From Pseudomonadota bacterium (GTDB taxonomy: Bacteria; Desulfobacterota; Desulfobulbia; Desulfobulbales; SURF-16): a stretch of DNA of 37,309 bases. A program made the translations under genes and the position numbers. The notes beneath the pieces are model-generated. The model was not told the origin of the DNA. It saw nothing but the letters and a program-made list of their open reading frames with translations, and did not search any database. The DNA lies in NCBI GenBank assembly GCA_018897105.1, contig JAHILF010000020.1, positions 1 to 37,309 of the forward strand, in the 5' to 3' direction. Shown here one piece after another: positions 23,897-37,309 of the stretch. The number at the start of each line of letters is the position of its first letter. Within the stretch, counting starts at the first letter, position 1.

Positions 23897-25654
23897 ATGA
23901 AGAAACACGAGAAGAACAACAGAGAGGGGCATCCCAGGCAGCCGCCGCAGAAGTTGCTTGGCCGGTTGGCATATCTGGTCAGATACAGTCCCAACACCCT
24001 TATTATCACCGACACCGATGGAACCATCGAGTATGTCAACACCGTTTTTACCTCTATAACCGGCCATCAGTACGAAGATGTCATCGGTCATCATCTGGAC
24101 GACTTCAACCTGCACGATAAACAATCCATGCCCGGCTTTTCGCTGGCGGCAATCAGACGCGGGGATGTATGGCAGGGCGAGATCACCAGCTACACAAAGG
24201 ATGGCACCTCTTTTTACGAGCAGGTTTCCGTGCTGCCGATTACCGACGAAAATGACCGGATCTGCTGGATCGCCTTCATCAAACAAAATATCAGCAAAAC
24301 AAAAAGGGTTGAAGAAGAGCTGCGCACCCTGACCCAAACCCTGGAAGAGCAGATCAGGGATCAGAAGGCTACCGAGATTGAGCTGGCCGTGCTGAACCGG
24401 CAGAACGAGCTGATATTAAATTCGGTGGCTGAAGGCATCTTCGGGGTGGATGTCGAGGGGAGTATCACCTTTGTCAACGCCACGGCGGAGAAACTGACCG
24501 GCTACCGCAGTGACGAGGTTTTCGGCATCCCCTACCGCGTTTTCTTTCAGCCGAAAAGCGTAGATGGTGTGCGCTTCGACCCCCGGCCCTGCCCCATTTC
24601 CGCCTCGTTTAAAGATGGCATGACCCACCGCAGTTCCCAGGAGGTTTTTGCCAGGGAGGACGGATCGAGCTTTCCGGTCCGTCTGGTCAGCGCCCCGATT
24701 ATCGAGGATGAAACCGTGATCGGTGCTGTCGTCCTGTTTGAGGATATTACGGACGAACTGCGCATCCAGCGTGAAAAGCAGAAGGCGGAACAGCAGTTGC
24801 GCGAACTGACGGCTACCCTTGATGAGCGGGTGCAGAAACGCACGGCCCAGTTAAATGCCATAAATATCGATCTATTAAACACCCTGAACCAGCTGCAGAA
24901 AACTCAGGCGCAACTGGTCCAGTCGGAAAAAATGGCCTCCCTGGGCGGTCTTGTTGCCGGTGTGGCCCATGAAATCAACACCCCGGTGGGCATCGCCTTT
25001 ACCGCCGCCACCCACCTTGACAAGGAAACCGCTGAGGTGCTCAAGCTGTACCGCAGCGGGAAGATGAAGCGCAGTGACTTGGATGAGTATCTCGATACCT
25101 GCCGGGAATCCACCGCCCTGCTGCAATCAAATCTGAACCGGGCTGGGGAATTGATCCGCAGCTTCAAACAGGTTGCCATCGATCAGACCGGGGAAGCAAA
25201 GCGCACATTCAACCTGGGTGAATATATAGATGAAGTTCTGCTGAGCCTCAGGCCGATGCTGAAAAAGACCAGACATGCGGTCGAGGTCATCTGCGATGAG
25301 AAAATTTCTCTTTGCAGTTATCCCGGGGCATTTTCCCAAATACTGACCAACCTCATGACCAATTCGCTCACCCATGCCTATGCTGAAGGTGAGGCCGGCC
25401 GCATCCGGCTGTTTTTTTCACAAACCCCGGACAACCTTACGCTCGACTTCAGCGATGACGGCAAGGGCATAGCGACAAATGACCTGCCCCGCATCTTTGA
25501 GCCTTTTTTTACCACGAACAGGAAAATGGGGGGAAGCGGGCTCGGCCTGCACATTATTTATAACATTATTACCCAGAAACTTAACGGCGCCATCATCTGC
25601 CGGAGTGAACCGGGCAAAGGTACGACCTTTGTCGTCAATATTCCGTTGGTGTAG
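23897..25654 (+). CDS. Cytoplasmic PAS-PAS sensor histidine kinase
   Basis: 585 residues, no membrane segment. PAS1 (about 25-140, SPNTLIITDTDGTIEYVN), PAS2 (about 168-300, ILNSVAEGIFGVDVEG), coiled linker ending RVQKRTAQLNA, dimerisation/phosphoacceptor region with H358 in GVAHEINTPVG, and ATPase domain with N-box NLMTNSLTHAY, DDGKGI and GGSGLGLHI. The H-box form HEINTP is typical of kinases paired with separate regulators. It precedes the REC-HD-GYP gene by 82 bases in the same direction, its probable partner. The ribosome site is weak (GAAAG about 11 bases before ATG). The sensed signal is unknown; PAS domains often bind haem, flavin or small ligands. Confidence 0.92.
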   Translation: MKKHEKNNREGHPRQPPQKLLGRLAYLVRYSPNTLIITDTDGTIEYVNTVFTSITGHQYEDVIGHHLDDFNLHDKQSMPGFSLAAIRRGDVWQGEITSYTKDGTSFYEQVSVLPITDENDRICWIAFIKQNISKTKRVEEELRTLTQTLEEQIRDQKATEIELAVLNRQNELILNSVAEGIFGVDVEGSITFVNATAEKLTGYRSDEVFGIPYRVFFQPKSVDGVRFDPRPCPISASFKDGMTHRSSQEVFAREDGSSFPVRLVSAPIIEDETVIGAVVLFEDITDELRIQREKQKAEQQLRELTATLDERVQKRTAQLNAINIDLLNTLNQLQKTQAQLVQSEKMASLGGLVAGVAHEINTPVGIAFTAATHLDKETAEVLKLYRSGKMKRSDLDEYLDTCRESTALLQSNLNRAGELIRSFKQVAIDQTGEAKRTFNLGEYIDEVLLSLRPMLKKTRHAVEVICDEKISLCSYPGAFSQILTNLMTNSLTHAYAEGEAGRIRLFFSQTPDNLTLDFSDDGKGIATNDLPRIFEPFFTTNRKMGGSGLGLHIIYNIITQKLNGAIICRSEPGKGTTFVVNIPLV

Positions 25655-25736
25655 ATGAGGCCCGAGAATTTCAATATATCGTCAATTTCTGCAATAGACT
25701 TGCCGCAACTAACAGAAAACACCCGAGAGCATTGCC

Positions 25737-27320
25737 ATGACCGATAACAGCAAAGATGACCTGATATTTTTCGACGAACCGGGCAACCTCTCATCCGCTC
25801 AGGATGAGAGGCCGGGAACTCAGCAGTCTCCTGCCAGGTGCTGGAAAATCCTGATTGTTGATGATGACAGGGAGGTGCACAGCATCACCACCCTGGTGTT
25901 GAAAAAATTCAGTTATGACGGCAGGGGGTTACAGTTTCTGCATGCCTACAGCGAAAGTGAGGCAAGAGCCCGGATCATGCAGCATCCGGACACGGCGGTC
26001 ATCCTGCTTGATGTGGTCATGGAGAACAATGATTCCGGATTGGCCTTTGTCGAGTTTGTCCGCAAGGTACAAAAGAATGCCTTTGTCCGTATTATCCTGA
26101 GAACCGGCCAGCCTGGCCAGGCCCCGGAAGAAAAGGTCATCGTCGAGTATGACATCAACGACTACAAGGAAAAGACCGAGCTTTCCTCCCAGAAACTCTT
26201 TACCGTCATGGTCTCGTCGCTACGCACCTACCGTGATATCCTGGTCATTGAGGCAAATCGTCAGGGTCTGCGGAGAATTATCGATGCCTCGGCCAACCTT
26301 TTCGAGCTGCGCTCCCTCAGGCAGCTCGCCTCCGGGGTGCTCACCCAGCTCGTTTCCATCCTGCACATGGACCCCAATGCCATTGTTTTTGAGACATCAG
26401 GATTTGCCGCGACAAAATCGGCAAAGCAGTTTGATATCCTGGCCGCCACCGGCAAGTTTGCAGGCTTGACGGAGATAACCAGGGAGGATGAATTACCGAA
26501 AAATGTTCTTGTCGATCTGCATGAGGCCATTTCCCGTAAAAGATGCCTCTGCTATGCTGACAGATACATCGGTTACTTCAAAAGCCAGTTCGGCGCGGAA
26601 ACGGTTATCTACTGCGAGGGCTGGAATGAGCTGAGCGAACTCAACAAATCGCTGATCGAAATTTTCTGCACCAATGTCCATATCGCCTTTGAAAATACCC
26701 ACCTCAATTTAGAGATTGAGGACACCCAGAAAGAGATCATTTATACCTTGGGCGAGATCGCCGAGGCCCGCTCCCAGGAAACCGGGTTCCACGTCAAGAG
26801 GGTTTCGGAATACAGCCGATTGCTTGGTGAAAAATGCGGATTGTCCCCGACCCATATTGAAATACTGCGCCTGGCCTCACCCATGCACGATGTGGGCAAG
26901 GTGGCCATCCCGGACAATATCCTCAATAATCCTGGTCCGTTGAACAGTGATGAATTTTCAACCATGAAAAATCATGCCGCCATCGGCCATGATATGCTGG
27001 TCTCCTCGAGCCGGGAAATCATGCAGGCGGCAGCGATCATAGCCGTCCAGCACCACGAAAAATATGACGGATCCGGCTATCCGGCTGGGCTTAAAGGCAA
27101 TGATATCCATGTGTTTGCCCGTATTACCGCTATTGCCGATGTCTTTGATGCCCTGTGCAACGACCGGGTCTACCGCAAGGCCTATGACATGAATGAGATT
27201 CTTGGCTATTTCTCCAAGGAAAGGGGCTGCCATTTTGATCCTGCCATGGTGGACATTTTTCTGGCCAATATCAACGATTTCATCACCATTAAAAAGACAC
27301 TTGATGGTCGCGCTCTGTAA
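25737..27320 (+). CDS. Response regulator REC-DUF3369-HD-GYP, cyclic di-GMP phosphodiesterase
   Basis: 527 residues. Receiver domain (about 37-170) with ILIVDDDRE and phosphoacceptor D92 in ILLDVVMEN. Middle DUF3369 domain (about 175-330). HD-GYP domain (about 335-515) with HD pair H384-D385 in MHDVGKVAIPD, HHEKYDGSGYPAGL and RITAIADVFDAL. HD-GYP enzymes hydrolyse cyclic di-GMP using a two- or three-iron centre, and all main metal-binding motifs appear intact. Phosphorylation by the kinase just upstream would set its activity. This suggests control of motility or biofilm, which is inference. Confidence 0.93.
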   Translation: MTDNSKDDLIFFDEPGNLSSAQDERPGTQQSPARCWKILIVDDDREVHSITTLVLKKFSYDGRGLQFLHAYSESEARARIMQHPDTAVILLDVVMENNDSGLAFVEFVRKVQKNAFVRIILRTGQPGQAPEEKVIVEYDINDYKEKTELSSQKLFTVMVSSLRTYRDILVIEANRQGLRRIIDASANLFELRSLRQLASGVLTQLVSILHMDPNAIVFETSGFAATKSAKQFDILAATGKFAGLTEITREDELPKNVLVDLHEAISRKRCLCYADRYIGYFKSQFGAETVIYCEGWNELSELNKSLIEIFCTNVHIAFENTHLNLEIEDTQKEIIYTLGEIAEARSQETGFHVKRVSEYSRLLGEKCGLSPTHIEILRLASPMHDVGKVAIPDNILNNPGPLNSDEFSTMKNHAAIGHDMLVSSSREIMQAAAIIAVQHHEKYDGSGYPAGLKGNDIHVFARITAIADVFDALCNDRVYRKAYDMNEILGYFSKERGCHFDPAMVDIFLANINDFITIKKTLDGRAL

Positions 27321-27392
27321 GAGTCTGCGTTCAATCCCTGCTGGCAATGATGACGGGTGATGCGGAAAAAGAAGCAGGCTGTCTGGAGGAGA

Positions 27393-27450
27393 GATCCACT
27401 CCCCTTTTTCCTGATTGTAACGAGGCGACAGGAGAAAAAAAGAGTGGATC
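27393..27450. terminator. Bidirectional hairpin terminator
   Basis: GATCCACTC with a following pyrimidine tract (27393-27413) pairs with a purine tract ending GAGTGGATC (27429-27450), with small bulges. It sits between the ends of the HD-GYP gene (+) and flxA (-). Polypyrimidine runs inside the stem could serve as T-tracts in either direction. Confidence 0.6.
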
Positions 27451-27459
27451 GGGGAGAAG

Positions 27460-28290
27460 CTATAGTTCGTTGGGTAATTGTCTGAGCTGGGCGCGGGTGA
27501 ACACGGGGCCGTCCATGCACACATAGCTGGTGCCGATGTTGCAACGGCCGCAGATTCCCACTCCGCATTTCATGCGTTTTTCCAGGGTGGTGACAATCTG
27601 TTCATCCTTGAAGCCGAGCTTTTCCAGGGCCTGCAGGGTAAACTTGATCATGATCGGCGGGCCGCAGGTGATGGCCACGCTGTTTCCCGGGCTTGGCGCT
27701 ATATCGAGCAGCACGTTGGGAATGAGACCCACTTTGTGTTGCCATCCCTCGTATGGGGCGTCGATGGTCAGATAGGTATCCAGATCATCGCGATCCAGCC
27801 AGTCCTGCAATTCATAGCTGTAGGCCATGTCAACCGGGGAACGTGCCCCATAGAGCAGGGTGATTTTGCCGTAATCAGCCCGGTTGTCGAGCATGAACAG
27901 CAGCAGAGTGCGCAGGGGCGCCATGCCGATGCCGCCGCCGACAAAGACAATATCTTTGCCCTTCATATCCTCATAGGGAAACGAATTGCCAAGGGGTGCG
28001 CGTACGCCGATCTGATCGCCGGCCTTGAGGGAATGCAGTTTGCTGGTCACTTCGCCGGTGCGCATGACGCTGAACTGCAGATAATCCATGCGCGTGGGCG
28101 GCGAATTGATGACAAAGGTGGCCTCGCCGGTGCCGAAGGAGGAGACCTGTCCCACCTGACCCGGCTTGAAGGAGAAATTTTTCATGGCTTCCGGGTTATT
28201 CAGGGTGACCCTGAAGGTCATGATATTATGCGTTTCCCGGATAACTTCCTGAATGGTCGCCATTTCCGGTAGATAAATATTTTTGGTCAT
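27460..28290 (-). CDS. flxA: FlxA, FAD/NAD-binding oxidoreductase subunit
   Basis: 276 residues. Ferredoxin-NADP reductase-like FAD domain (about 1-100), NAD-binding domain with VFVGGGIGMAPLRTLL (about 113-225), and C-terminal [2Fe-2S] site with CGVGICGRCNIGTSYVC, as in PyrK/hydrogenase gamma proteins. In FlxABCD-HdrABC this subunit is thought to oxidise NADH. It starts three bases after the flxB stop with GAGGAG as ribosome site and ends the operon. Placement after flxB and the shared operon with hdrABC support the name over a generic dihydroorotate dehydrogenase electron-transfer subunit. Confidence 0.85.
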   Translation of the reverse strand: MTKNIYLPEMATIQEVIRETHNIMTFRVTLNNPEAMKNFSFKPGQVGQVSSFGTGEATFVINSPPTRMDYLQFSVMRTGEVTSKLHSLKAGDQIGVRAPLGNSFPYEDMKGKDIVFVGGGIGMAPLRTLLLFMLDNRADYGKITLLYGARSPVDMAYSYELQDWLDRDDLDTYLTIDAPYEGWQHKVGLIPNVLLDIAPSPGNSVAITCGPPIMIKFTLQALEKLGFKDEQIVTTLEKRMKCGVGICGRCNIGTSYVCMDGPVFTRAQLRQLPNEL

Positions 28291-28293
28291 GTC

Positions 28294-29355
28294 TTACTCC
28301 TCAACCGCTGCAGGCTCAAAATCAATGGCCTTCAGCACGATTTCGCGAATGTCTATGCCGGCAGGGCAGCTCTTGATGCATCTGCCGCAGCCGCAGCAGG
28401 AGATCACTCCCCCATGGATGGTGGGATAATAGCTGAACTTGTGGCCAACCCGATTTTTCAGCCGATGTGCCTTGGTGGGGCGCGGATTGTGACCGCTTGC
28501 TTCCATGGTGAACTGGGCTGACATGCAGTTGTCCCATGACCTGAGCCGTTTCCCTTTCATGCCGTTGGTTTCATCGGTGATGTTAAAACAATAACAGGAG
28601 GGGCAGAGATAGGTGCAGGCCCCACAGCTGAGACATTTTGCCGAAACTTCTTCCCAGAATTGCATGTTGTCAAAGACGGCCAGGAGTTTTGCCGGAGCCT
28701 GGGACAGGTCTTTGGTGTTGTTTATGGAGCCGGCGATCTCCTGACAGATTTTGTCTGCTTCGACTTTTCTGGATGATCCGTCGGCCAGCAGTTTTGAGTT
28801 GAGCAGTTTTTCGCCCTGCTCAGACACGGACTCCAGCAGATAGCCGTCGTTCATCGGAATAGCCAGCACATCGGAGCCGGTTGGATCACAGGGATCGCTG
28901 TCCACCCAGTTGCAGAAACAGGTGTTTTCGATTGTCCTGCAGGCCAGGGTAATGAACAGCGTGTTCTTCCTGCGGGCCTGGTAGTAGATATCGGTGTTTT
29001 TATCGGACAGATAGACCCGGTCAAACATGGTGAAACCGCGTGCGTCACAGGGCCGGCTGCCAAAGACCACCGTACTCCCTTCGGGCAGGGTTTCCCTGGC
29101 GTCGATTTTGACCCTGCTCAGATTTTCCGGATCTTTACTGTAGGTGAAATCAACCAGCTTTTCACTCTGGGGGAAGACCGTCTTTTTGGGCGGCATGGTG
29201 GCTGCACGGTCAAGGATAATCTCCTGCTCCAGGTCAAAGGGACGGAAAAGCAATGCCTCACCGTCATAACTCGGGGCAAAGACCCTGTGTTCCTTTGCCA
29301 GTTCGGCCAGCCAGGGCTTCACATCCGCTGATTTAATGAATTGGACCTTCGCCAT
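28294..29355 (-). CDS. flxB: FlxB, iron-sulfur subunit
   Basis: 353 residues. Two ferredoxin-type sets of cysteines: CLSCGACTYLCPSCYC (about 240-255) and CCGCGRCIKSCPAG (about 325-340). An additional pair is present in the N-terminal half (TCFCNW). The N-terminal part resembles sulfhydrogenase beta-type 4Fe-4S proteins. It should relay electrons from FlxA towards the Hdr part. The ATG at 29355 overlaps the flxC stop as TAATG and has better spacing to GAGAGGG than the ATG at 29361. Confidence 0.83.
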   Translation of the reverse strand: MAKVQFIKSADVKPWLAELAKEHRVFAPSYDGEALLFRPFDLEQEIILDRAATMPPKKTVFPQSEKLVDFTYSKDPENLSRVKIDARETLPEGSTVVFGSRPCDARGFTMFDRVYLSDKNTDIYYQARRKNTLFITLACRTIENTCFCNWVDSDPCDPTGSDVLAIPMNDGYLLESVSEQGEKLLNSKLLADGSSRKVEADKICQEIAGSINNTKDLSQAPAKLLAVFDNMQFWEEVSAKCLSCGACTYLCPSCYCFNITDETNGMKGKRLRSWDNCMSAQFTMEASGHNPRPTKAHRLKNRVGHKFSYYPTIHGGVISCCGCGRCIKSCPAGIDIREIVLKAIDFEPAAVEE

Positions 29356-30311
29356 TACCATTCCCTCTCATTGATATTCTCTTCTTCCATCTTGAAGGAG
29401 AGCAGGGGCGGAGTAGCTTCAGGGTCAACTCCCGCCTCATATTGAAATAGTTCTTTGATTTCCTTGTTCATTTTTTTCTTCAGCAGGAGCAGCGGAATAT
29501 CCATGGGGCAGGCCCGCTGGCATTCACCACACTCGGTGCATCGTCCGGCCAGATGATAGGCATGAATAAGCTGAAACATCCATTTGTCACGGACACTGTC
29601 TTCCTGGCTCAACCAGTGCGGGTCGCGGCTTTCGGCCAGACAATGGTCGCGGCAAACGCACATGGGGCAGGCGTTGCGGCAGGCGTAACAACGGATACAG
29701 CGGTCCATTTCCTTCTGCCAGAAGGCGAAACGTTCGTCCATCGGCATTTTTTCAAAGGCCTCCAGGTCGTCGTCGCCTTCAGTCTGAACGGAGGGGCTGA
29801 TCTTCTCCCCCACAAAATGGTCGGAGATCAGGGCATTGGGGTACTGGCAGGAAAAACACTTGTCGGCCAGCACCTTGGAAAGACGCAGCTTATGCTCCTC
29901 GCCGCCTAAGCCGATGACGACCGTCTGGGACGCTATCTGACAAAAATCAACCTTGCCGGTATGACCCAGGGCCTTGCGTATTTTTGTCTGGTCTACCACG
30001 CCGGTACAGGGGAAACCGAAAATGGTGACCTCTTCCCGGTTGATCAGATTTTCCTGCAGCAGTTCAATGACGGAACGGCTGTCGCAGCCCTTGACCACAA
30101 TGCCGACCTTCTTGCCGCGCAAACCGGGGAGATAGGTTGCCAGATTATGCACACTGAACGGTCCTATCTCAAGCCGGTCGATATCTTCTTCCCGGCGGAT
30201 GAAGTGGGGGGTGGCATGCAGGGGATCATATCCCGCGCTCCAGGCTATAACCACATCAAGACCCGGCAGGGCCTTTCTGATGCTGTCTTTTAGTTCTTGT
30301 TGGTATTTCAC
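29355..30311 (-). CDS. flxC: FlxC, iron-sulfur subunit
   Basis: 318 residues. The N-terminal part resembles the FrhB/coenzyme F420 hydrogenase beta-type fold (KKVGIVVKGCDSRSVIELLQ, VTIFGFPCTGVVD). Two ferredoxin-like cysteine sets follow: CIRCYACRNACPMC (about 205-218) and CTECGECQRACPMD (about 258-271). The start is GTG with AAAGGAGAACCA before it. Adjacent to flxD by 24 bases and overlapping flxB. Most likely an electron-transfer subunit of the FlxABCD-HdrABC complex. Confidence 0.82.
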   Translation of the reverse strand: MKYQQELKDSIRKALPGLDVVIAWSAGYDPLHATPHFIRREEDIDRLEIGPFSVHNLATYLPGLRGKKVGIVVKGCDSRSVIELLQENLINREEVTIFGFPCTGVVDQTKIRKALGHTGKVDFCQIASQTVVIGLGGEEHKLRLSKVLADKCFSCQYPNALISDHFVGEKISPSVQTEGDDDLEAFEKMPMDERFAFWQKEMDRCIRCYACRNACPMCVCRDHCLAESRDPHWLSQEDSVRDKWMFQLIHAYHLAGRCTECGECQRACPMDIPLLLLKKKMNKEIKELFQYEAGVDPEATPPLLSFKMEEENINEREW

Positions 30312-30335
30312 TGGTTCTCCTTTGAGGCGCAGAGC

Positions 30336-30800
30336 TTAGAGGGCTGCTTCCATCTGCCTCAGTGTCTCCGAGGCCGCTGGTCCTGCTATTTTCGGGGCCG
30401 GACCGAGTTTGTGAATCTGTTCTGTAAACCGGGTCACCACCTGCTGCCACCGCTGGCCTTCCGATGCCGAGACCCAGGTATATTCGAATCTGCCCGGTTC
30501 AATACCGAGGATGGGCAGAAATCTGTGCAGCACCTCAAGCCTTCTGCGGGCATAAAAGTTTCCTTCCGCATAGTGGCAGTCACGGGGATGGCAACCGGAG
30601 ACCAACACGCCGTCTGCGCCGTTCAGCAGGGTTTTCATGATAAACAGGGGATCGATCCTGCCGGAACAGGGAACCCTGATAATGCGCAGGTCAGTGGGCT
30701 GATTAAAGCGTCCCACACCCGCGGTATCGGCGCCGCCGTAGGAGCACCAGTTACAGAGAAAACCTACAATACGAAGCTCCTTACCTTTTAAAACTGGCAT
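30336..30800 (-). CDS. flxD: FlxD, MvhD-like subunit
   Basis: 154 residues of the MvhD/hydrogenase delta family that connects an electron-input module to HdrA. Cysteines CNWCSYGGAD, VPCSGRID and GCHPRDCHY would hold a [2Fe-2S]-type cluster. No in-frame TGA is present, so it is not a selenocysteine form. The ATG overlaps the end of hdrA by 13 bases and has GGAGG about 10 bases before it. Confidence 0.86.
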   Translation of the reverse strand: MPVLKGKELRIVGFLCNWCSYGGADTAGVGRFNQPTDLRIIRVPCSGRIDPLFIMKTLLNGADGVLVSGCHPRDCHYAEGNFYARRRLEVLHRFLPILGIEPGRFEYTWVSASEGQRWQQVVTRFTEQIHKLGPAPKIAGPAASETLRQMEAAL

Positions 30801-32746
30801 AGGGCGTTAACCTCCGAAAGAATCTGGTTGTCGGTAAAATGCTGGAGTTGGGCCGCTCCCTGGGGACAGGTTGAGGTGCAGATACCGCAGCCCTGACATA
30901 CTGTTTCAATGACTTCGGCCTTTTTCATGCCACGGAAGTCAATCTCCTTGATGGCGCCGAATGGGCAGGTTTTTATGCACTTGCCGCAACCGATGCAGCG
31001 TTTGATGTCCACCACGGAAACCTGTGGATCGCTTGCCAGCTTGTCCTTGGAGAAGAGCCCCAGCACCTTGGATGCTGCGGCGCTGCCCTGGGCGACCGAG
31101 GAGGGAATGTCCTTCGGCCCCTGGCAGCACCCGGCCAGATAAACACCGGCAGTGTTTGTTTCCACCGGTTTGAGTTTCGGATGGCCTTCCATGTAAAAGC
31201 CGTACGAGTCGTAGGAGATGCGCAGTTTTTCCGCCAGTCCCGCGGCGCCTGCTGACGAATCGGCGCCAACGGCCAGCACGACCAGGTCTGCATCAACTTC
31301 AACCTGCGTTCCCATCAGGGTGTCGGCGCCGCGTACCAGCAGACTGTCGCCCTTGGGATAGATCATGGAGACCCGGCCTCTGATATATTTGGCATTGTAT
31401 TCTTCCATGGCCCGGCGGGTGAACTCGTCGTAATTTTTCCCCGTAGCCCGGATATCCATATAAAAGACATAGGTTTGGGCCTCGGGCAGGTGGTCCTTGG
31501 TCAGGATGGCCTGCTTGGCGGTATACATGCAGCAGAAACCGGTGCAGTACGGACGTCCCACGGATTTGTCCCGGGAACCCACGCACTGGATGAAAACCAC
31601 GTTTTTCGGTTCCTTGCCGTCCGAAGGACGCTTGATATGGCCGCCGGTGGGTCCGGAGGCTGACAGCATGCGCTCATACTGCAGGGAGGTAATGACATCC
31701 GGATAGCGTCCGCCGCCATATTCGCCGTAAACGGTCCAGTCAAACAGATCGAAACCCGTGGCCGCAACGATGGCGCCGACCTTTTCGGTGACAAATTCAT
31801 CCTGCTGGGTGAAGTCAATGCATCCGGACGGGCAGACCTTGGCGCAGATGCCGCATTTGCCCTTCTGTAGTTTCATGCAGAAATTAGCATCGATCTTGGC
31901 CTTTTTCGGGATGGCCTGGGGAAAAGGGATATTGATGGCGGTCGTCTTGCCGATGCCTTCGTTAAAAAAATCCGTGGCCTTTTTACTGGGGCATTTTGTC
32001 ATGCAGATGCCGCAGCCCGTGCATTTATCCCAGTCGACATAGGTGGCCTTCTTTTTCACCTTGACTTCAAAGTTGCCCACATAACCGCTGACCTCTTCAA
32101 TCTCCGAGTAGGCATACAGGGTGATATTGGGATGCTGGGCCACGTCAACCATGCGCGGACCGAGGATACAGCAGGAGCAGTCAACCGTGGGAAAGGTCTT
32201 GTCAAGTTTTGCCATCTTGCCGCCGATGGTAGTGGTCTTTTCCACCAGAATCACTTCAAGACCACCTTCCGCACAATCCAGAGCCGCCTGGATTCCAGCC
32301 ACTCCGCCGCCGATGATCAGCACGCGTTTATTGATGTCGAACTGTTTGGAAAGAAGCGGTCGGTTGTGCAGCAGTTTTGAGGCGGCCATGCGCACCAGTT
32401 CGGTCGCCTTGTTGGTGTTGGCTTCGCGATCTTTGCCGATCCAGGAAACATGCTCGCGGATGTTGGCCATCTCAAAGAGATAACGGTTCAGTCCGGCACG
32501 TTCCACGGTGCGGCGGAATGTCTGTTCGTGCATGCGCGGCGTACAGGATGCTACGACCACGCCATCGAGCTGATGTTCCTTGATGGCGTTAACGATTTCC
32601 TCCTGTCCCGGTTCGGAGCAGGTGTACATGGTATCGGTCGCAAAGGCCACGCCGGGAAATTCCCTGGCTGCCGCTGCTACTGCTGCGGTGTCAACTGTAC
32701 CTTCGATATTGCTGCCGCAATGACAGACAAAAACTCCGATTTTCAT
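30788..32746 (-). CDS. hdrA: Heterodisulfide reductase subunit A
   Basis: 652 residues. N-terminal CHCGSNIEG region, FAD-binding domain with VLIIGGGVAGIQAAL and the cysteine stretch TVDCSCCILGPRM, then two ferredoxin sets: CTGCGICMTKCP and CGICAKVCPSGC near the middle, CIGCGKCIKTCP and CQGCGICTSTCP near the C-terminus. HdrA carries the bifurcating flavin in related complexes. It would split electrons from NADH between ferredoxin and the HdrB disulfide site. Its start overlaps the hdrB stop by four bases (ATGA). Confidence 0.95.
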   Translation of the reverse strand: MKIGVFVCHCGSNIEGTVDTAAVAAAAREFPGVAFATDTMYTCSEPGQEEIVNAIKEHQLDGVVVASCTPRMHEQTFRRTVERAGLNRYLFEMANIREHVSWIGKDREANTNKATELVRMAASKLLHNRPLLSKQFDINKRVLIIGGGVAGIQAALDCAEGGLEVILVEKTTTIGGKMAKLDKTFPTVDCSCCILGPRMVDVAQHPNITLYAYSEIEEVSGYVGNFEVKVKKKATYVDWDKCTGCGICMTKCPSKKATDFFNEGIGKTTAINIPFPQAIPKKAKIDANFCMKLQKGKCGICAKVCPSGCIDFTQQDEFVTEKVGAIVAATGFDLFDWTVYGEYGGGRYPDVITSLQYERMLSASGPTGGHIKRPSDGKEPKNVVFIQCVGSRDKSVGRPYCTGFCCMYTAKQAILTKDHLPEAQTYVFYMDIRATGKNYDEFTRRAMEEYNAKYIRGRVSMIYPKGDSLLVRGADTLMGTQVEVDADLVVLAVGADSSAGAAGLAEKLRISYDSYGFYMEGHPKLKPVETNTAGVYLAGCCQGPKDIPSSVAQGSAAASKVLGLFSKDKLASDPQVSVVDIKRCIGCGKCIKTCPFGAIKEIDFRGMKKAEVIETVCQGCGICTSTCPQGAAQLQHFTDNQILSEVNALCQF

Positions 32747-33648
32747 TGAGACTTCTCCTTGGAATCCCCTTCCATGCCGAGAGCATTTATCACTGAGCGG
32801 GGATTCACGCAGAGCTTGTCAATGCCCAGTTCTTTTTCTGAAAGGCCGAAGGCCAATCCCATAAGCTGGGTAAAGTAGAAAATCGGCATATGATGCTTTG
32901 AGCCATTGGCGCTGTTGATCTGTTCCTGCCGCATGTCCAGATTCATCTGGCACAGGGGACAGGCAGTGACCAGGGCCATGGCGCCCATTTCTTTGGCCGT
33001 GTCCAGCAGCTTGCCGGAAAGCCGCATGACCACATCCTTGCGCGGGATGCCGAATGATGCGCCGCAGCACTCCACCTTGAGCGGGAACGGCACAACGGTT
33101 GCGCCCAGGGCTGTCATGATGTTGTCCATGGCCATGGGATGTTCGCGGTCGTCAAAGTTCATGATTTCGGCCGGCCGGTTCATGATGCAGCCGTAATAGG
33201 CGGCAACGATGAGACCCGTCAGGGGCTTTGTCACTTTTGCCTTGATTTTCTCGATACCGTAATCTTCCACCAGTATCTGCAGCACCGATTTGGTCTCAAC
33301 GGTGATGTCGGCCGGTTTGTCCAGCAGTTTGCTGACCTTTTCCCGGAAACTGTCATTTTTCATGCGGTGTTGTGCCGTCTTGAGGTTGGACAGACAGCTG
33401 GGACAAGGGGTCACAGCCGCGGTCAGACCCATGGAGGCCACCTGGCACAGATTGCGGGCGGAAAGGGCGGACGACAGGGTGTGGTCAACAGTATGAGCAG
33501 GGGTGGAACCGCAGCAGCTCCAGTTGGGGACATCGGTCAGCGTAATGTCCAGAGCAGCGCAGATGGCGCGGCTGGACATGTCATATTCTATGGATGTCCC
33601 GGTGCTTGAACAGCCGGGATAGTATGCGTAAGTTAAAGAAACGCTCAT
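32743..33648 (-). CDS. hdrB: Heterodisulfide reductase subunit B
   Basis: 301 residues with two CCG domains: CCGSTPAH (about 45) and ECCGASFG (about 195). Partner cysteines are YYPGCSSTG, TPCPSCLSN, YYGCIMNR and TACPLCQMN. These motifs hold the noncubane iron-sulfur clusters that reduce disulfides in HdrB. In bacteria of this type the substrate may be DsrC, which is inference. It overlaps hdrC and hdrA by four bases at each end. Confidence 0.94.
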   Translation of the reverse strand: MSVSLTYAYYPGCSSTGTSIEYDMSSRAICAALDITLTDVPNWSCCGSTPAHTVDHTLSSALSARNLCQVASMGLTAAVTPCPSCLSNLKTAQHRMKNDSFREKVSKLLDKPADITVETKSVLQILVEDYGIEKIKAKVTKPLTGLIVAAYYGCIMNRPAEIMNFDDREHPMAMDNIMTALGATVVPFPLKVECCGASFGIPRKDVVMRLSGKLLDTAKEMGAMALVTACPLCQMNLDMRQEQINSANGSKHHMPIFYFTQLMGLAFGLSEKELGIDKLCVNPRSVINALGMEGDSKEKSQ

Positions 33649-34205
33649 TTTGACGACTCCTCTGTATAGCGACGAAAAATTTTAGCGACCTCTTCTTTGC
33701 CCTGCATGGCGGACGGTTTGAGATGTATCTTGCCCTTGGGCAGCATCATGGGGCCAAGACCCATATCCGTCCAGAATCTTCCTGTATGGGATATGTAATT
33801 TGCCAGCAGGCCTACTTCAAACACCCGGCCATTTTTTTGGACGGAATGCAGAAAAGAATCCCAGAAGGTTTTTACCGTCTTTACTCCGCCATAGCCTTCG
33901 CGGCGAGCCATATGGCGCAGTACGTCCATAATGCGGGCCACGTCGATTTTGTTGGGACAACGGGCGGTGCAGGATTCGCAGGTGGCGCAGAGCCAGAGAG
34001 ATTTTGACTTGAGCACCAGCTCCTTCTGTCCCGCCTGGGTCAGGCGCATGATCTGGCTGACCGGGATGTCGTATTCGGTCGTATAGGGACATCCTGCCGT
34101 GCATTTACCGCACTGATAACAGAGGCTGAGCTGCTGGCCGCTCTCCTCTTCCACCTGTCTGACGAAATCAGAGTTACATGATGATGTTAAATTGATTACG
34201 TTCAT
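33645..34205 (-). CDS. hdrC: Heterodisulfide reductase subunit C
   Basis: 186 residues with two [4Fe-4S] sets: CYQCGKCTAGCP (about 29-40) and CATCESCTARCP (about 73-84). The small size, without membrane helices, is that of the soluble HdrC type. It passes electrons between HdrA and HdrB. First of the hdr genes, 106 bases after adh. The ribosome site is weak (AAAGGCGG further upstream). Confidence 0.93.
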   Translation of the reverse strand: MNVINLTSSCNSDFVRQVEEESGQQLSLCYQCGKCTAGCPYTTEYDIPVSQIMRLTQAGQKELVLKSKSLWLCATCESCTARCPNKIDVARIMDVLRHMARREGYGGVKTVKTFWDSFLHSVQKNGRVFEVGLLANYISHTGRFWTDMGLGPMMLPKGKIHLKPSAMQGKEEVAKIFRRYTEESSK

Positions 34206-34256
34206 ATTCTTGCTTGCCGCCTTTATTTGCCCTTTTACTGTTTAAATCCCTGCGAA

Positions 34257-34286
34257 TCAGGGAGCGGGCGAAAGCCCGCTCCCTGA
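34257..34286. promoter_or_regulatory. Strong hairpin in the adh-hdrC spacer
   Basis: A perfect 13-base-pair stem (TCAGGGAGCGGGC and its complement) closes the loop GAAA. It lies 26 bases after the adh stop. No T-run follows on either strand, so it is more likely a partial terminator, RNA-stability or processing hairpin that uncouples adh from hdr-flx levels. Confidence 0.6.
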
Positions 34287-34311
34287 TATGTAAAGATGTC
34301 CGTTTTGGTAA

Positions 34312-35493
34312 TTACAGTGCTGCTTTGTAGATGGCTGCAACGTCTGCATCTTTCGGACAACGGGGATTGGTGAAACCACAGGCGTCTTTCTGAGCATTAC
34401 CTGTCATGGTGGCGATATCTTCTTCCTTTACATCCTTGCCATAGCGTTTGCCGAGGGCAATCAGTCCGTCCGGGATGCCGACGTCGGCGGACAGTTTCTT
34501 GATGGCAACCAGAGCCAGTTCCGCTGCATCGCGGGGAGCAAGACCTTCAACGTTCTCACCCAGCAGTTGGGCGATTTTGACGAAACGGTCAATTTTGGCG
34601 ATCAGGTTGAATTTCTCAACATGGGGGAGAAGGATGGCATTGCACTCGCCATGGGGCAGGTCGTAAAAACCGCCGAGCTGATGGGCCATGGCATGAACGT
34701 GGCCGAGGCTGGCGTTGTTGAAGGCCATACCGGCCAGGTACTGGGCGTAACACATACCTTCACGGGCAACGATGTCGCTGCCGTTTGCCACTGCGGGGCG
34801 CAGGTGCTGAGCAATCAGCTCAATGGCCTTTTCCGCAGCGGAGTCGGTCATCGGGGTGGCGATGGTGGAAACATAAGCCTCAACAGCATGGGTCAGAGCG
34901 TCCATACCGGTGGCGGCAGTCAGTGCGGGCGGCATACCCATCATCAGCAGCGGATCATCGAGGGCGATCCCGGGAGTGACACGCCAGTCAACGATTGCCA
35001 TCTTCACTTTGCGGCTGGTGTCGGTGATGATGCAGAAACGGGTCATTTCAGAAGCGGTTCCCGCTGTGGTGTTTACTGCAACGTAGGGAGGCATGGGTTT
35101 GGTCGATTTGTCCACGCCTTCGAAATCGTGAATTTTGCCGCCATTGGCAATAACCAGGCCTACACCTTTACCGCAGTCATGGGAGCTGCCGCCGCCCAGG
35201 GTGATTAGGCTGTCGCATTTGTTTTTCTTGTAAATTTCTACACCCGCATGGACGTTATTGTCAGTGGGGTTCGGAATGGTGTCGTCGTAAACAACGAAAT
35301 CCATGCCGGCTGCTGCCAGAAGGTCGGTGATTTTTTTGGTGATGCCTGCGCCGGTGATACCCTTGTCGGTGACGACCAGGGGTTTGCTGCCGCCCAGGGC
35401 TTTGATCTTGGCGGGAATTTCTTTGTGAGCACCAATACCGATGAGGGTTACGCTGGGAATGAAAAATCCGTAAACTTGTTCGCGTACTGCCAT
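34312..35493 (-). CDS. adh: Iron-containing alcohol dehydrogenase
   Basis: A 393-residue group III Fe-dependent alcohol dehydrogenase. NAD-binding GGGSSHDCGKG (100-110). Metal ligands D198 and H202 (DALTH), H267 (GHVHAMAHQ) and H281 (LPHGECNA). It interconverts ethanol and acetaldehyde with NADH. The ribosome site AGGAAGG precedes the ATG by about eight bases. It is first in the series with hdrCBA and flxDCBA, an arrangement known in Desulfovibrio vulgaris, where it was linked to ethanol metabolism. Confidence 0.95.
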   Translation of the reverse strand: MAVREQVYGFFIPSVTLIGIGAHKEIPAKIKALGGSKPLVVTDKGITGAGITKKITDLLAAAGMDFVVYDDTIPNPTDNNVHAGVEIYKKNKCDSLITLGGGSSHDCGKGVGLVIANGGKIHDFEGVDKSTKPMPPYVAVNTTAGTASEMTRFCIITDTSRKVKMAIVDWRVTPGIALDDPLLMMGMPPALTAATGMDALTHAVEAYVSTIATPMTDSAAEKAIELIAQHLRPAVANGSDIVAREGMCYAQYLAGMAFNNASLGHVHAMAHQLGGFYDLPHGECNAILLPHVEKFNLIAKIDRFVKIAQLLGENVEGLAPRDAAELALVAIKKLSADVGIPDGLIALGKRYGKDVKEEDIATMTGNAQKDACGFTNPRCPKDADVAAIYKAAL

Positions 35494-35581
35494 GATGTTA
35501 CCTTCCTTTTTTGAGATAATTAGTTGTACTACTGCTCCATTGCCTCACTTTGGATCCAAACAACGTTTAGCCTTCCATATT

Positions 35582-35597
35582 AGCAACTCGCGTGCCA
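35582..35597 (-). promoter_or_regulatory. Sigma-54 (-24/-12) promoter of the adh-hdr-flx operon
   Basis: On the minus strand the sequence is TGGCACGCGAGTTGCT, which matches the RpoN consensus TGGCACR-N4-TTGCW at every fixed position. The -24 GG and -12 GC have the required spacing. The start of transcription would fall near 35571, giving a leader of about 78 bases before the adh ATG. An enhancer-binding activator is required by this promoter class; none is encoded in the window. Confidence 0.88.
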
Positions 35598-35794
35598 CAA
35601 AATAATACTTAATAAAATCAATAAATTATCTGTTTTTTTGAAAAAATGTAATGGGGCAACATGACTCAAACCAAGGCAGTGAAGTTTTTTTCGATAACAA
35701 CTCAGGGAGGCATCGGGCTCGCAAAGCATGCGCAGCAGGCCCTTAACAGGCACGAAGACAAAATGAAACATCGAACAAGGAAGAATGAGTCAGA

Positions 35795-35816
35795 ATGACC
35801 CGTATTATTTGGTCAT
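35795..35816. promoter_or_regulatory. Candidate upstream activator site
   Basis: ATGACC at 35795-35800 and GGTCAT at 35811-35816 form a perfect inverted repeat with a 10-base AT-rich spacer, about 200 bases upstream of the sigma-54 promoter. That distance suits an enhancer-binding protein. By-eye assignment only. Confidence 0.4.
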
Positions 35817-35817
35817 G

Positions 35818-36137
35818 GTGAAGATCTGGCGGCAAGCCAATGGGAGACAAATCGTCCGGAAATATTGGAATAATAAAGTGGACCCCTGAGTCAAGACAAA
35901 AATCCACTGAGTTTAAGCTGCACATTCAACTTCAAGCGCATGGGTACTTATCCACGATCACTGCACCGCCGGCCTTGCCCGCGATAACGGCGTTTTGGCA
36001 ATGCCAACGGTCGCGGGCAAGGCCGGCTCCTACCCCGCGAACTTTCATGCTTCGTTGTTCCCGCTTGCGGAGATGGGGGTTAGCCCCATAAGGAGAATTC
36101 GAGGCTCTTGGGTTTTCTGATCCTTTGTTGCCTCCGT
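35818..36137. other. Intergenic region with repeat remnants
   Basis: No supported gene. Contains a possible insertion-sequence end (AGTGGACCCCTGAGTCAAG from 35877, closed by TCCACT at 35903-35908) and a separate palindromic REP-type element at 35968-36027. The remainder shows nothing recognisable. Confidence 0.4.
35968..36027. repeat. Palindromic REP-type element
   Basis: GCCGGCCTTGCCCGCGA (35968-35984) and its exact complement (36011-36027) form a 17-base-pair stem. The loop itself contains TTGGCAATGCCAA. This core is common as a dispersed intergenic repeat in other bacteria. It lies about 110 bases beyond the end of the truncated kinase, and may act as a terminator for it. Confidence 0.75.
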
Positions 36138-37184
36138 CTATTTGGCAGCAATCACAATGGCTGGGAGGTGGATATGAAAGGTGGTTCCTTTGTCTGGTTT
36201 CGACTTCACGATGATCGCTCCGCCCTGCTTGCGGATGATCGTATCGCACAGGGCAAGTCCGAGGCCTATACCCTTCTGGCAACCAGGCTGTTTGGTGGAA
36301 AAATAGGGATCGAAGATGCGGGGCAGGTCCTCGCTGCTGATTCCACAGCCCTGGTCCTGGATCGAGATCTTTACGTAGTTACCGGGGGCAAGGGTTGGAG
36401 GCTTTTCAGCAGTCGACCGTAAGGGTTCATTGGTGGCCTTTACCTTGATCTTGCCGTCTGATCTTAAGGACATGGCATCCATGGCGTTCAGCACTATGTG
36501 TTTGATGACTAAACGGAATTGGGCAGGATCAACATTGATGAGCCAGAGGTCATTGGCCAGATCGAATTCGGCCACAAGGCCAGAATCGCCCAAGGTAGAA
36601 GTTACCACCTCCCTGATGTGGCTTGCCGGCTGGATATTTATCAGATGTGAGAACCCTCCAGAAGAGAAGGCAATGAGTTGGCTGGTGAGCATGGTGGCTA
36701 ATCGATACACCTGTTCAGCGTTTTCCAGAACCTGGAAGGCCTTATTTGATTGCGGAGTGAACATCTTGGCAAGCGTGAGATTGCCCAAAAGCCCCTGAAG
36801 CAGATTATTGAAATCATGGGCGATACCGCCGACCAGGACGCCAAGGGACTCAAGATTTCTGGCCTTCATGGCCTCGGCCTCAAGGCGCTTGCGCTCGGTA
36901 ATGTCTCTGGTGTTTGACACCACTCCGACGATGCGATTTTTCATATCCCTGTAAGGGGAATAGGTTACATCAACACATCTCCTTCCTAATGTTGGGTAGT
37001 CAAACCACTCTTGATAGTTGATAATTTCACCCTGCAGGCATCTGTCCAAGTGAGGCTTAATAGCGTGCTGAAAGACATCTTCGCCAAGATATTCTGCGAC
37101 TGTCAGTCCGATTAATTTCTCCTGGTTAATGCCTGAGAATTTCTCATAAGATTTGTTTACTATTCTATATCCAATGTCATTAAC
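36138..37184 (-). CDS. PAS sensor histidine kinase, 5'-truncated
   Basis: The open frame encodes the later part of a PAS domain (VNDIGYRIVNKSYEKFSG onward), a phosphoacceptor domain with GGIAHDFNNLLQGLLGN and an ATPase domain with DQGCGISSEDLPRIFDPYFSTK and GIGLGLALCDT. The C-terminal end is complete. At the 5' end the frame meets TAA at 37187-37185, inside the arm of the terminal repeat. No ATG or GTG start lies between that stop and 37049, where the first TTG occurs, and using that TTG would remove half of the PAS domain. The gene is therefore cut by the repeat, either in the genome or by the assembly. The HDFNN type of H-box matches that of the hybrid kinase at 7 kb. No receiver domain follows. 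Confidence 0.8.
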   Translation of the reverse strand, partial: VNDIGYRIVNKSYEKFSGINQEKLIGLTVAEYLGEDVFQHAIKPHLDRCLQGEIINYQEWFDYPTLGRRCVDVTYSPYRDMKNRIVGVVSNTRDITERKRLEAEAMKARNLESLGVLVGGIAHDFNNLLQGLLGNLTLAKMFTPQSNKAFQVLENAEQVYRLATMLTSQLIAFSSGGFSHLINIQPASHIREVVTSTLGDSGLVAEFDLANDLWLINVDPAQFRLVIKHIVLNAMDAMSLRSDGKIKVKATNEPLRSTAEKPPTLAPGNYVKISIQDQGCGISSEDLPRIFDPYFSTKQPGCQKGIGLGLALCDTIIRKQGGAIIVKSKPDKGTTFHIHLPAIVIAAK

Positions 37185-37309
37185 TTAAGCCTTTTCGCCG
37201 GTTGCCTGAGCCCAGGTTCGTCATTCCGGCGAAGGCCGGAATCCAGGTAGTTACGACAATTCTGGACCCCGGCCTTCGCCGGGGTGACGACGAGTGTAGT
37301 CAGTTTTTC
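37173..37309. repeat. Right copy of terminal dispersed repeat
   Basis: 37191-37309 equals 1-119 exactly. The flank AATGTCATTAACTTAAG at 37173-37189 is inverted relative to 119-135 at 15 of 17 positions. The arm overlaps the truncated kinase frame and supplies its in-frame stop. Confidence 0.85.

Follow-up and report, generated by a model that had tools for sequence, protein, structure and literature searches.

Control of an adh-hdr-flx operon by sigma-54 and the NtrC-type activator DVU2394 is already known from Desulfovibrio vulgaris. According to Rajeev 2011 (PMC3333781), DVU2394 regulates DVU2405-2397 and has a direct-repeat motif that, apart from D. vulgaris Hildenborough, occurs in strain Miyazaki only; a sigma-54 regulome of ten Desulfovibrionales genomes lists DVU2405-2399 as the DVU2394 target (Kazakov 2015, PMC4641369). 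The enzyme's role in ethanol metabolism has been shown by others in D. vulgaris, and proteomics together with an Flx-Hdr model have been presented for that organism (PMC10920352). We analyzed a 37,309-nucleotide stretch of DNA (hereafter the window), which is contig C73 of its source genome (4.95 Mb in 177 contigs), and within it the adh-hdrCBA-flxDCBA operon, eight minus-strand open reading frames at 27460-35493 that encode an alcohol dehydrogenase (ADH) and the FlxABCD-HdrABC complex. The operon likely forms the enzymatic arm of a sigma-54 regulon that responds to alcohol and is activated via an NtrC-type regulator of the kind encoded on another contig, C72.

A first-pass annotation of the window had read eight genes for ethanol oxidation and FlxABCD-HdrABC, with the gene content described in D. 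vulgaris. Both points were borne out, as the open reading frames lie where they had been placed, their protein families agree with the names, and the same adh, hdr and flx genes make up the DVU2405-2397/2399 operon of D. vulgaris Hildenborough, which also shares a sigma-54 promoter and an NtrC-type activator with a GSFTGA loop. None of the eight operon proteins reached a curated NCBIfam cut-off, although Pfam and NCBIfam matches fit the gene names. The layout of an adh-HdrABC-FlxABCD module is present, with hdrCBA and flxDCBA contiguous and adh in front, and the likeness to the described FlxABCD-HdrABC (Ramos 2015, as cited in later work) covers the subunit set and the coupling to an ADH. The source genome also encodes a DsrC with both C-terminal cysteines, and the nearest relatives of FlxB are in JAHIVT010000004.1 (95%), a Desulfurivibrio sp. 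record (87%), and then Desulfocapsa and Desulfobulbaceae records, on which ground the group is called Desulfobulbales here. The locus differs from its D. vulgaris counterpart in that flxC and flxD are separate genes, whereas FlxCD is described as one protein there; in its host order, which is Desulfobulbales-like; in the placement of the regulator cassette on another contig; and in two more predicted target genes.

Upstream of adh, the first-pass annotation had recognized a promoter fitting every fixed base of the RpoN consensus. TGGCAC-N5-TTGC occurs exactly once in the window (35597-35583), with the GG and GC dinucleotides at -24 and -12 and fixed spacing, and the predicted start agrees with that annotation because the position of the -12 element gives about 35571. 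Since near matches with at most one mismatch are no commoner than in shuffles (2 in the window versus 4.6 expected), only the exactness of the promoter and its conservation are informative. The source genome (4.95 Mb) has 5 matches to TGGCACGN4TTGCT and 0 to a reversed control. Following up two checks proposed in the first-pass annotation, we found one copy of rpoN in the source genome (PF04552, 213.5 bits) and a conserved site in the upstream regions of orthologous operons. This comparison covered 71 loci, comprising 15 adh-led operons (16 with the window), 43 hdrC-led operons, and 13 loci left out as fragments or for want of hdrC (L034, L040, L043, L046, L053, L054, L060, L065, L087, L093, L097, L098, L101). 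A sigma-54 site scoring 13-15 of 15 stands upstream of adh in 16/16 adh-led operons, 71-94 bp from the adh ATG in 15 of them and 212 bp in L037, with so high a score in only 0 to 2 of 200 upstream sequences resampled by a Markov model; in Desulfovibrionales the motif mostly reads TGGCCCG or TGGCTCG, not TGGCACG. Of the 43 hdrC-led operons, only 1 reaches a site score of 13.5 (0.29 expected). We also scanned 17 ADH1 upstream regions (ADH1 being the adh product), 4 of which duplicate already named loci, and of the 13 further genes 11 score at least 13, both exceptions being second copies in genome G103. Among these 13, hdrC was found downstream of ADH1 only in G090, and adh genes with no hdrC downstream frequently carry a sigma-54 site. 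Because the site accompanies 16/16 adh-led operons and 11/13 further ADH1 genes but 1/43 hdrC-led operons, we take the promoter to belong to adh and not to the hdr-flx bifurcation genes, a reading of the genomes in which sigma-54 control is a mark of FlxABCD-HdrABC being used together with adh, and not of the complex itself. Sigma-54 control as a general feature of hdr-flx operons was rejected on the same count. Two extra ADH1 copies in G103, on C48 and C52 (L153, L154), have neither a sigma-54 site nor activator sites. Five hdrC-led loci (L061-L064 and L069, 3 of 5 titled Desulfomicrobium or Desulfovibrionales metagenome-assembled genomes) have in common a weaker sigma-54-like site of 12.5-13.5 at 174-182 bp before hdrC, which may be real.

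The first-pass annotation had also proposed looking for an enhancer-binding protein elsewhere in the genome, and the source genome contains 40 strong matches to the sigma-54 activator domain of such proteins. In relatives, an NtrC-type response regulator stands directly upstream of adh (L038, L039, L044, L045, L048), and the same regulator group occurs near flxA in L052-L056 and L088 and also in L046. These operon-adjacent regulators form one group with 51-99% mutual identity and show at most about 42% identity to 29 of the 40 source-genome activators compared. Against the whole source genome, the L038 regulator has a single outlier, C72:32849-34174 (78%, 768 bits; next 39%, 322 bits), a protein with receiver, sigma-54 activation and Fis-type helix-turn-helix domains and a GSFTGA loop. 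Its adjoining kinase gene encodes a cytoplasmic-looking protein with HisKA and HATPase domains and a PAS_4 match slightly under cut-off. On C72, the genes for a second ADH (ADH2), the kinase and the regulator are followed in turn by a rubrerythrin-like gene and by those for a molybdopterin aldehyde oxidoreductase (NF045668, 1723 bits, above the cut-off of 1100) and an iron-sulfur flavoprotein. Over 116 genomes of the order, at orthologue thresholds of E <=1e-130 for the regulator and E <=1e-150 for ADH1, the regulator is present in 17 genomes, ADH1 in 17 and both in 16 (hypergeometric 1.6e-17, a figure that ignores phylogeny); the regulator-only genome, G079, has a frame-broken ADH1 right behind the regulator, followed by an aldehyde oxidoreductase. 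The activator of the adh operon is thus probably the C72 regulator, judging from identity and co-occurrence. A histidine-kinase gene fragment in the window (36138-37049), which lacks its N-terminus and lies near the contig end adjoining a REP-like repeat, was rejected as the cognate sensor, as L032 has other genes there and the regulator has its own kinase on C72.

We then considered candidate binding sites. An alignment of nine Desulfobulbales adh upstream regions contains three conserved blocks before the sigma-54 site, with an inverted-repeat consensus near GGGWCA-N3-TGWCCC. When the activator locus was scanned with this consensus, the three blocks turned up again upstream of the aldehyde oxidoreductase gene, and those of the rubrerythrin-like gene were found by reading the sequence. 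In 9/9 promoters, those of adh, aldehyde oxidoreductase and the rubrerythrin-like gene in three genomes (the source genome, G021 and G018), the distances from the blocks to the sigma-54 site downstream of them are 202-204, 170-172 and 68-71 bp, and the scores are 9-12, 8-10 and 10-12 of 12, respectively. The motif was derived from adh promoters, and the aldehyde oxidoreductase and rubrerythrin-like genes are independent of that derivation; in random sequence, a score of 10 in one slot has a probability of 0.001-0.002, and two slots together were reached in 0/20000 draws. The same layout recurs in the Desulfocapsa record L038, upstream of both adh and a rubrerythrin-like gene. A single activator motif is too weak to define targets because it occurs at at least 65 places in the genome versus 43 in the control. 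The combined pattern of a sigma-54 site with the nearest activator site occurs at 4 places in the source genome (control, 0), three of them the adh, aldehyde oxidoreductase and rubrerythrin-like promoters, and in 9 of 22 family genomes (two control matches in the family set), with further matches in G002, G005, G011 (two), G013, G018:C49 and G020. The fourth source-genome match, C113:9435 (L137 9449, minus strand; G000:C113), was rejected as a member of the regulon, having one weak activator-like site at 65 bp, and G019:C170 was rejected as a promoter of the same regulon. The C113 sigma-54 site (L137 9449) stands behind an enhancer-binding-protein gene. The aldehyde oxidoreductase gene has a leader of more than 400 bases, in which, downstream of the sigma-54 promoter, lies a short reading frame (about 40 codons; L115, about 4456-4334, minus strand) that has a good ribosome site.

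Several observations weigh against activation by the C72 regulator through these sites. In G070, a genome with ADH1 only, the sigma-54 site is perfect and no regulator orthologue passes the threshold. Only 5 of the 13 further ADH1 genes (G075, G085, G090, G108, G115) have at least two activator slots scoring at least 10, the layout fades beyond the two families in which the motif had been recognized, and Solidesulfovibrio sites match it only in part. The validated DVU2394 motif is described as a direct repeat, whereas the sites here are inverted repeats. Two sigma-70-like matches also lie upstream of adh (1.0 expected in shuffles), so that some basal transcription may occur. The G070 promoter, the 40 strong activator-domain matches and the missing layout before ADH1 in regulator-bearing G050, G057, G084 and G114b would fit an operon that depends on sigma-54 but is activated by another of the roughly 40 enhancer-binding proteins, with the C72 regulator serving its own neighbourhood only. 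We consider this quite unlikely, given that the regulator adjoins the operon in several lineages, that it co-occurs with ADH1 in 16 of 17 genomes, and that the same three-site layout precedes adh and two genes next to the regulator gene. Mainly constitutive expression from sigma-70, with the sigma-54 site minor or silent, would agree with the two upstream matches and with the high adh expression reported on several electron donors in D. vulgaris; it appears highly improbable in view of the match expected by chance, the conservation of the sigma-54 site and three upstream sites across orders, and a published D. vulgaris assignment that is to sigma-54.

At the level of sequence, the genes, the promoter, the site layout with its repetition across three genes and three genomes, and the co-occurrence of regulator and adh are established, and around them we propose the following mechanism. 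In response to an alcohol signal (an alcohol or alcohol product), the histidine kinase would phosphorylate the adjacent C72 regulator, which would then bind the three inverted-repeat sites (about 203, 171 and 70 bp upstream of the sigma-54 site), loop to the sigma-54 holoenzyme and open the promoter. ADH1 would oxidize ethanol to acetaldehyde, making NADH, and FlxABCD-HdrABC would reoxidize that NADH, passing its electrons by flavin-based bifurcation to ferredoxin and, probably, to DsrC. The molybdenum aldehyde oxidoreductase (acetaldehyde to acetate) and the rubrerythrin-like gene would be driven by this regulator as well. This suggests that cells would induce electron bifurcation jointly with the oxidation of both alcohol and aldehyde.

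Whether the signal reaches hdr-flx to the same extent as adh may depend on the 106-bp gap between adh and hdrC, in which we found no sigma-70-like promoter, no terminator and no sigma-54 site (best 9.0 of 15 in the window). A strong hairpin lies 16-79 bases past the adh stop in 17/17 adh-hdrC junctions, was matched in strength by 0-4 of 100 resampled gap sequences, and lacks a T run in 16/17. In the 9 of 17 hairpins aligned for covariation (L038 and seven Desulfovibrionales, not alignable by eye, were left out), 95.4% of cells pair, compared to 83.3% when shuffled (0/500) and 38-48% when slid; two-sided changes occupy 16 cells versus 5.5 expected (0/500 shuffles), and 6 pairs carry such changes, a number equalled by 42/500 shuffles. 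The first-pass annotation had tied the whole energy module to an activator signal. Dependence on a promoter and activator is supported by the comparisons above, but the promoter tracks adh and the conserved hairpin makes equal expression uncertain, so that hdr-flx expression may not follow adh one to one. We suggest that the hairpin may protect adh mRNA or cause partial termination; because a strong hairpin also follows 7/12 adh genes that lack hdrC, it may be no more than a feature of the adh 3' end. The conserved, covarying hairpin, and spectra of 111 for Adh1 versus 52 for HdrA in one D. vulgaris table (PMC10920352), would also suit a sigma-54 signal that governs adh only, with hdr-flx largely uncoupled by hairpin-dependent processing or partial termination or by a promoter of its own. 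We hold this to be rather unlikely, though the most serious of the alternatives, since the gap has no promoter or terminator of the kinds sought, the hairpin mostly lacks a T run, and similar hairpins occur where no hdrC follows.

The remaining member of the regulator cassette is ADH2, 36% identical to ADH1. The order ADH2-kinase-regulator is kept in 10/10 regulator loci examined (of 17 genomes), with ADH2 running off the contig in L146, and in 4/10 Desulfovibrionales loci (L044, L045, L046, L048); the Solidesulfovibrio loci (L052-L056, L088) have both kinase and regulator, and ADH2 was not found in the stretch examined. The metal ligands of iron-containing ADHs occupy four positions (D, H, H, H). 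All four are kept in 14/14 ADH2 sequences covering them (the fifteenth, in L038, is a fragment with the last motif only, and is whole in L156), and because of these ligands ADH2 may be an active enzyme, in addition to or in place of a sensor. In Pseudomonas aeruginosa, ErcA-ErcS pairs an iron-containing ADH with a sensor kinase in the regulation of ethanol oxidation (PMC7427536, PMC12997753); the system described there has hybrid kinases and AgmR for pyrroloquinoline quinone enzymes, whereas the partner here is a sigma-54 regulator. ADH2 scores 392.4 bits against the ErcA model NF041833, below the cut-off of 550, though this is its best score among the models listed. We tentatively suggest, with less than even confidence, that ADH2 is an alcohol sensor that informs the kinase, that the sigma-54 regulator fires a three-promoter alcohol-to-acetate regulon, and that the covarying hairpin sets the ratio of adh to hdr-flx. 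Pseudomonas ErcA would then be a parallel and not a family mate, and anaerobes, like Pseudomonas, would have turned an enzyme fold into an alcohol receptor; the role of ADH2 in the circuit is here inferred. In D. vulgaris, Adh2 (DVU2396), DVU2395 and DVU2394 carry adjacent locus numbers, akin to this cassette, and laboratory evolution is reported to have yielded mutations in DVU2396, DVU2395 and the regulator gene DVU2394 (PMC8319347, PMC7439460), as expected for DVU2396 and the regulator if they are members of one pathway. The likeness of the C72 regulator to DVU2394 was judged by the GSFTGA loop listed for the latter. The Desulfocapsa record L156 has a sigma-54-like site (4590, minus strand) and three activator-like sites before the ADH2-kinase-regulator cassette, which suggests autoregulation in that record.

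The circuit is ordinary but well conserved, a known D. vulgaris circuit moved into another order, with a testable probable activator and its putative sites now named; what is added here is this activator, the site layout, the extra targets and the hairpin. We did not find the circuit described in Desulfobulbales, or with an aldehyde oxidoreductase, among the open-access papers listed; supplements and RegPrecise fell outside this scope, and an earlier description is possible. The main text of Kazakov 2015 (PMC4641369) contains none of the words aldehyde, DVU1559 and Desulfobulb.

Table 1. Features of the operon, its upstream region and the regulator locus. Positions refer to the window unless a locus is named; UAS, upstream activator site.
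Feature	Position	Strand	Remarks
adh (ADH1), iron-containing alcohol dehydrogenase	34312-35493	-	PF00465/PF25137; nearest solved structure is an NAD-dependent methanol dehydrogenase
hdrC, 4Fe-4S dicluster HdrC	33645-34205	-	open reading frame and Pfam/NCBIfam match
hdrB, CCG HdrB	32743-33648	-	open reading frame and Pfam/NCBIfam match
hdrA, HdrA2-like	30788-32746	-	NF040770 (HdrA2) 819 bits, below cut-off 1100
flxD, FlpD/MvhD-like	30336-30800	-	PF02662
flxC	29355-30311	-	Fer4 domains; synteny
flxB	28294-29361	-	Fer4_22; synteny
flxA, NAD-binding flavoprotein (reductase)	27460-28290	-	PF00175/PF10418
Hairpin, 14-bp perfect stem	34256-34287	-	no T run after it; conserved in relatives; covariation
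Palindrome TTTGGATCCAAA	35549-35560	-	about +12 to +23 of predicted start; only place in genome
Predicted transcription start	35571 (about)	-	12 bases past the -12 C; predicted from the -12 element
Sigma-54 promoter (-24/-12) TGGCACGCGAGTTGCT	35582-35597	-	every fixed consensus base matched; conserved in adh-led relatives
UAS3 GAGTCATGTTGCCCC	35653-35667	-	putative; 70 bp before sigma-54 site
UAS2 GTTTCATTTTGTCTT	35755-35769	-	putative, weak (8 of 12); 172 bp before sigma-54 site
UAS1 GGGTCATTCTGACTC	35787-35801	-	putative; 204 bp before sigma-54 site; position conserved in relatives
C72 NtrC-type regulator gene	L115 7172-5835	-	orthologue of operon-adjacent regulators
C72 kinase gene	L115 8404-7172	-	adjoins regulator; HisKA and HATPase

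In the adh leader, the palindrome is present in 7/9 Desulfobulbales sequences, with one base different in L039 and a shortened form in L033, and GGATNCAAANTGAGGC is common to the leaders of adh and aldehyde oxidoreductase; the palindrome is possibly a second operator or an RNA element. No Rfam family was found in window positions 27000-37309. The stretch behind flxA, at 23897-27320, encodes a convergent PAS histidine kinase together with a response regulator that has an HD domain (HD-GYP-like) and DUF3369. Two long inverted repeats upstream of the operon, at 35968-36027 (17-bp perfect arms) and 37218-37290 (29-bp arms, 86%), resemble REP-type extragenic repeats.

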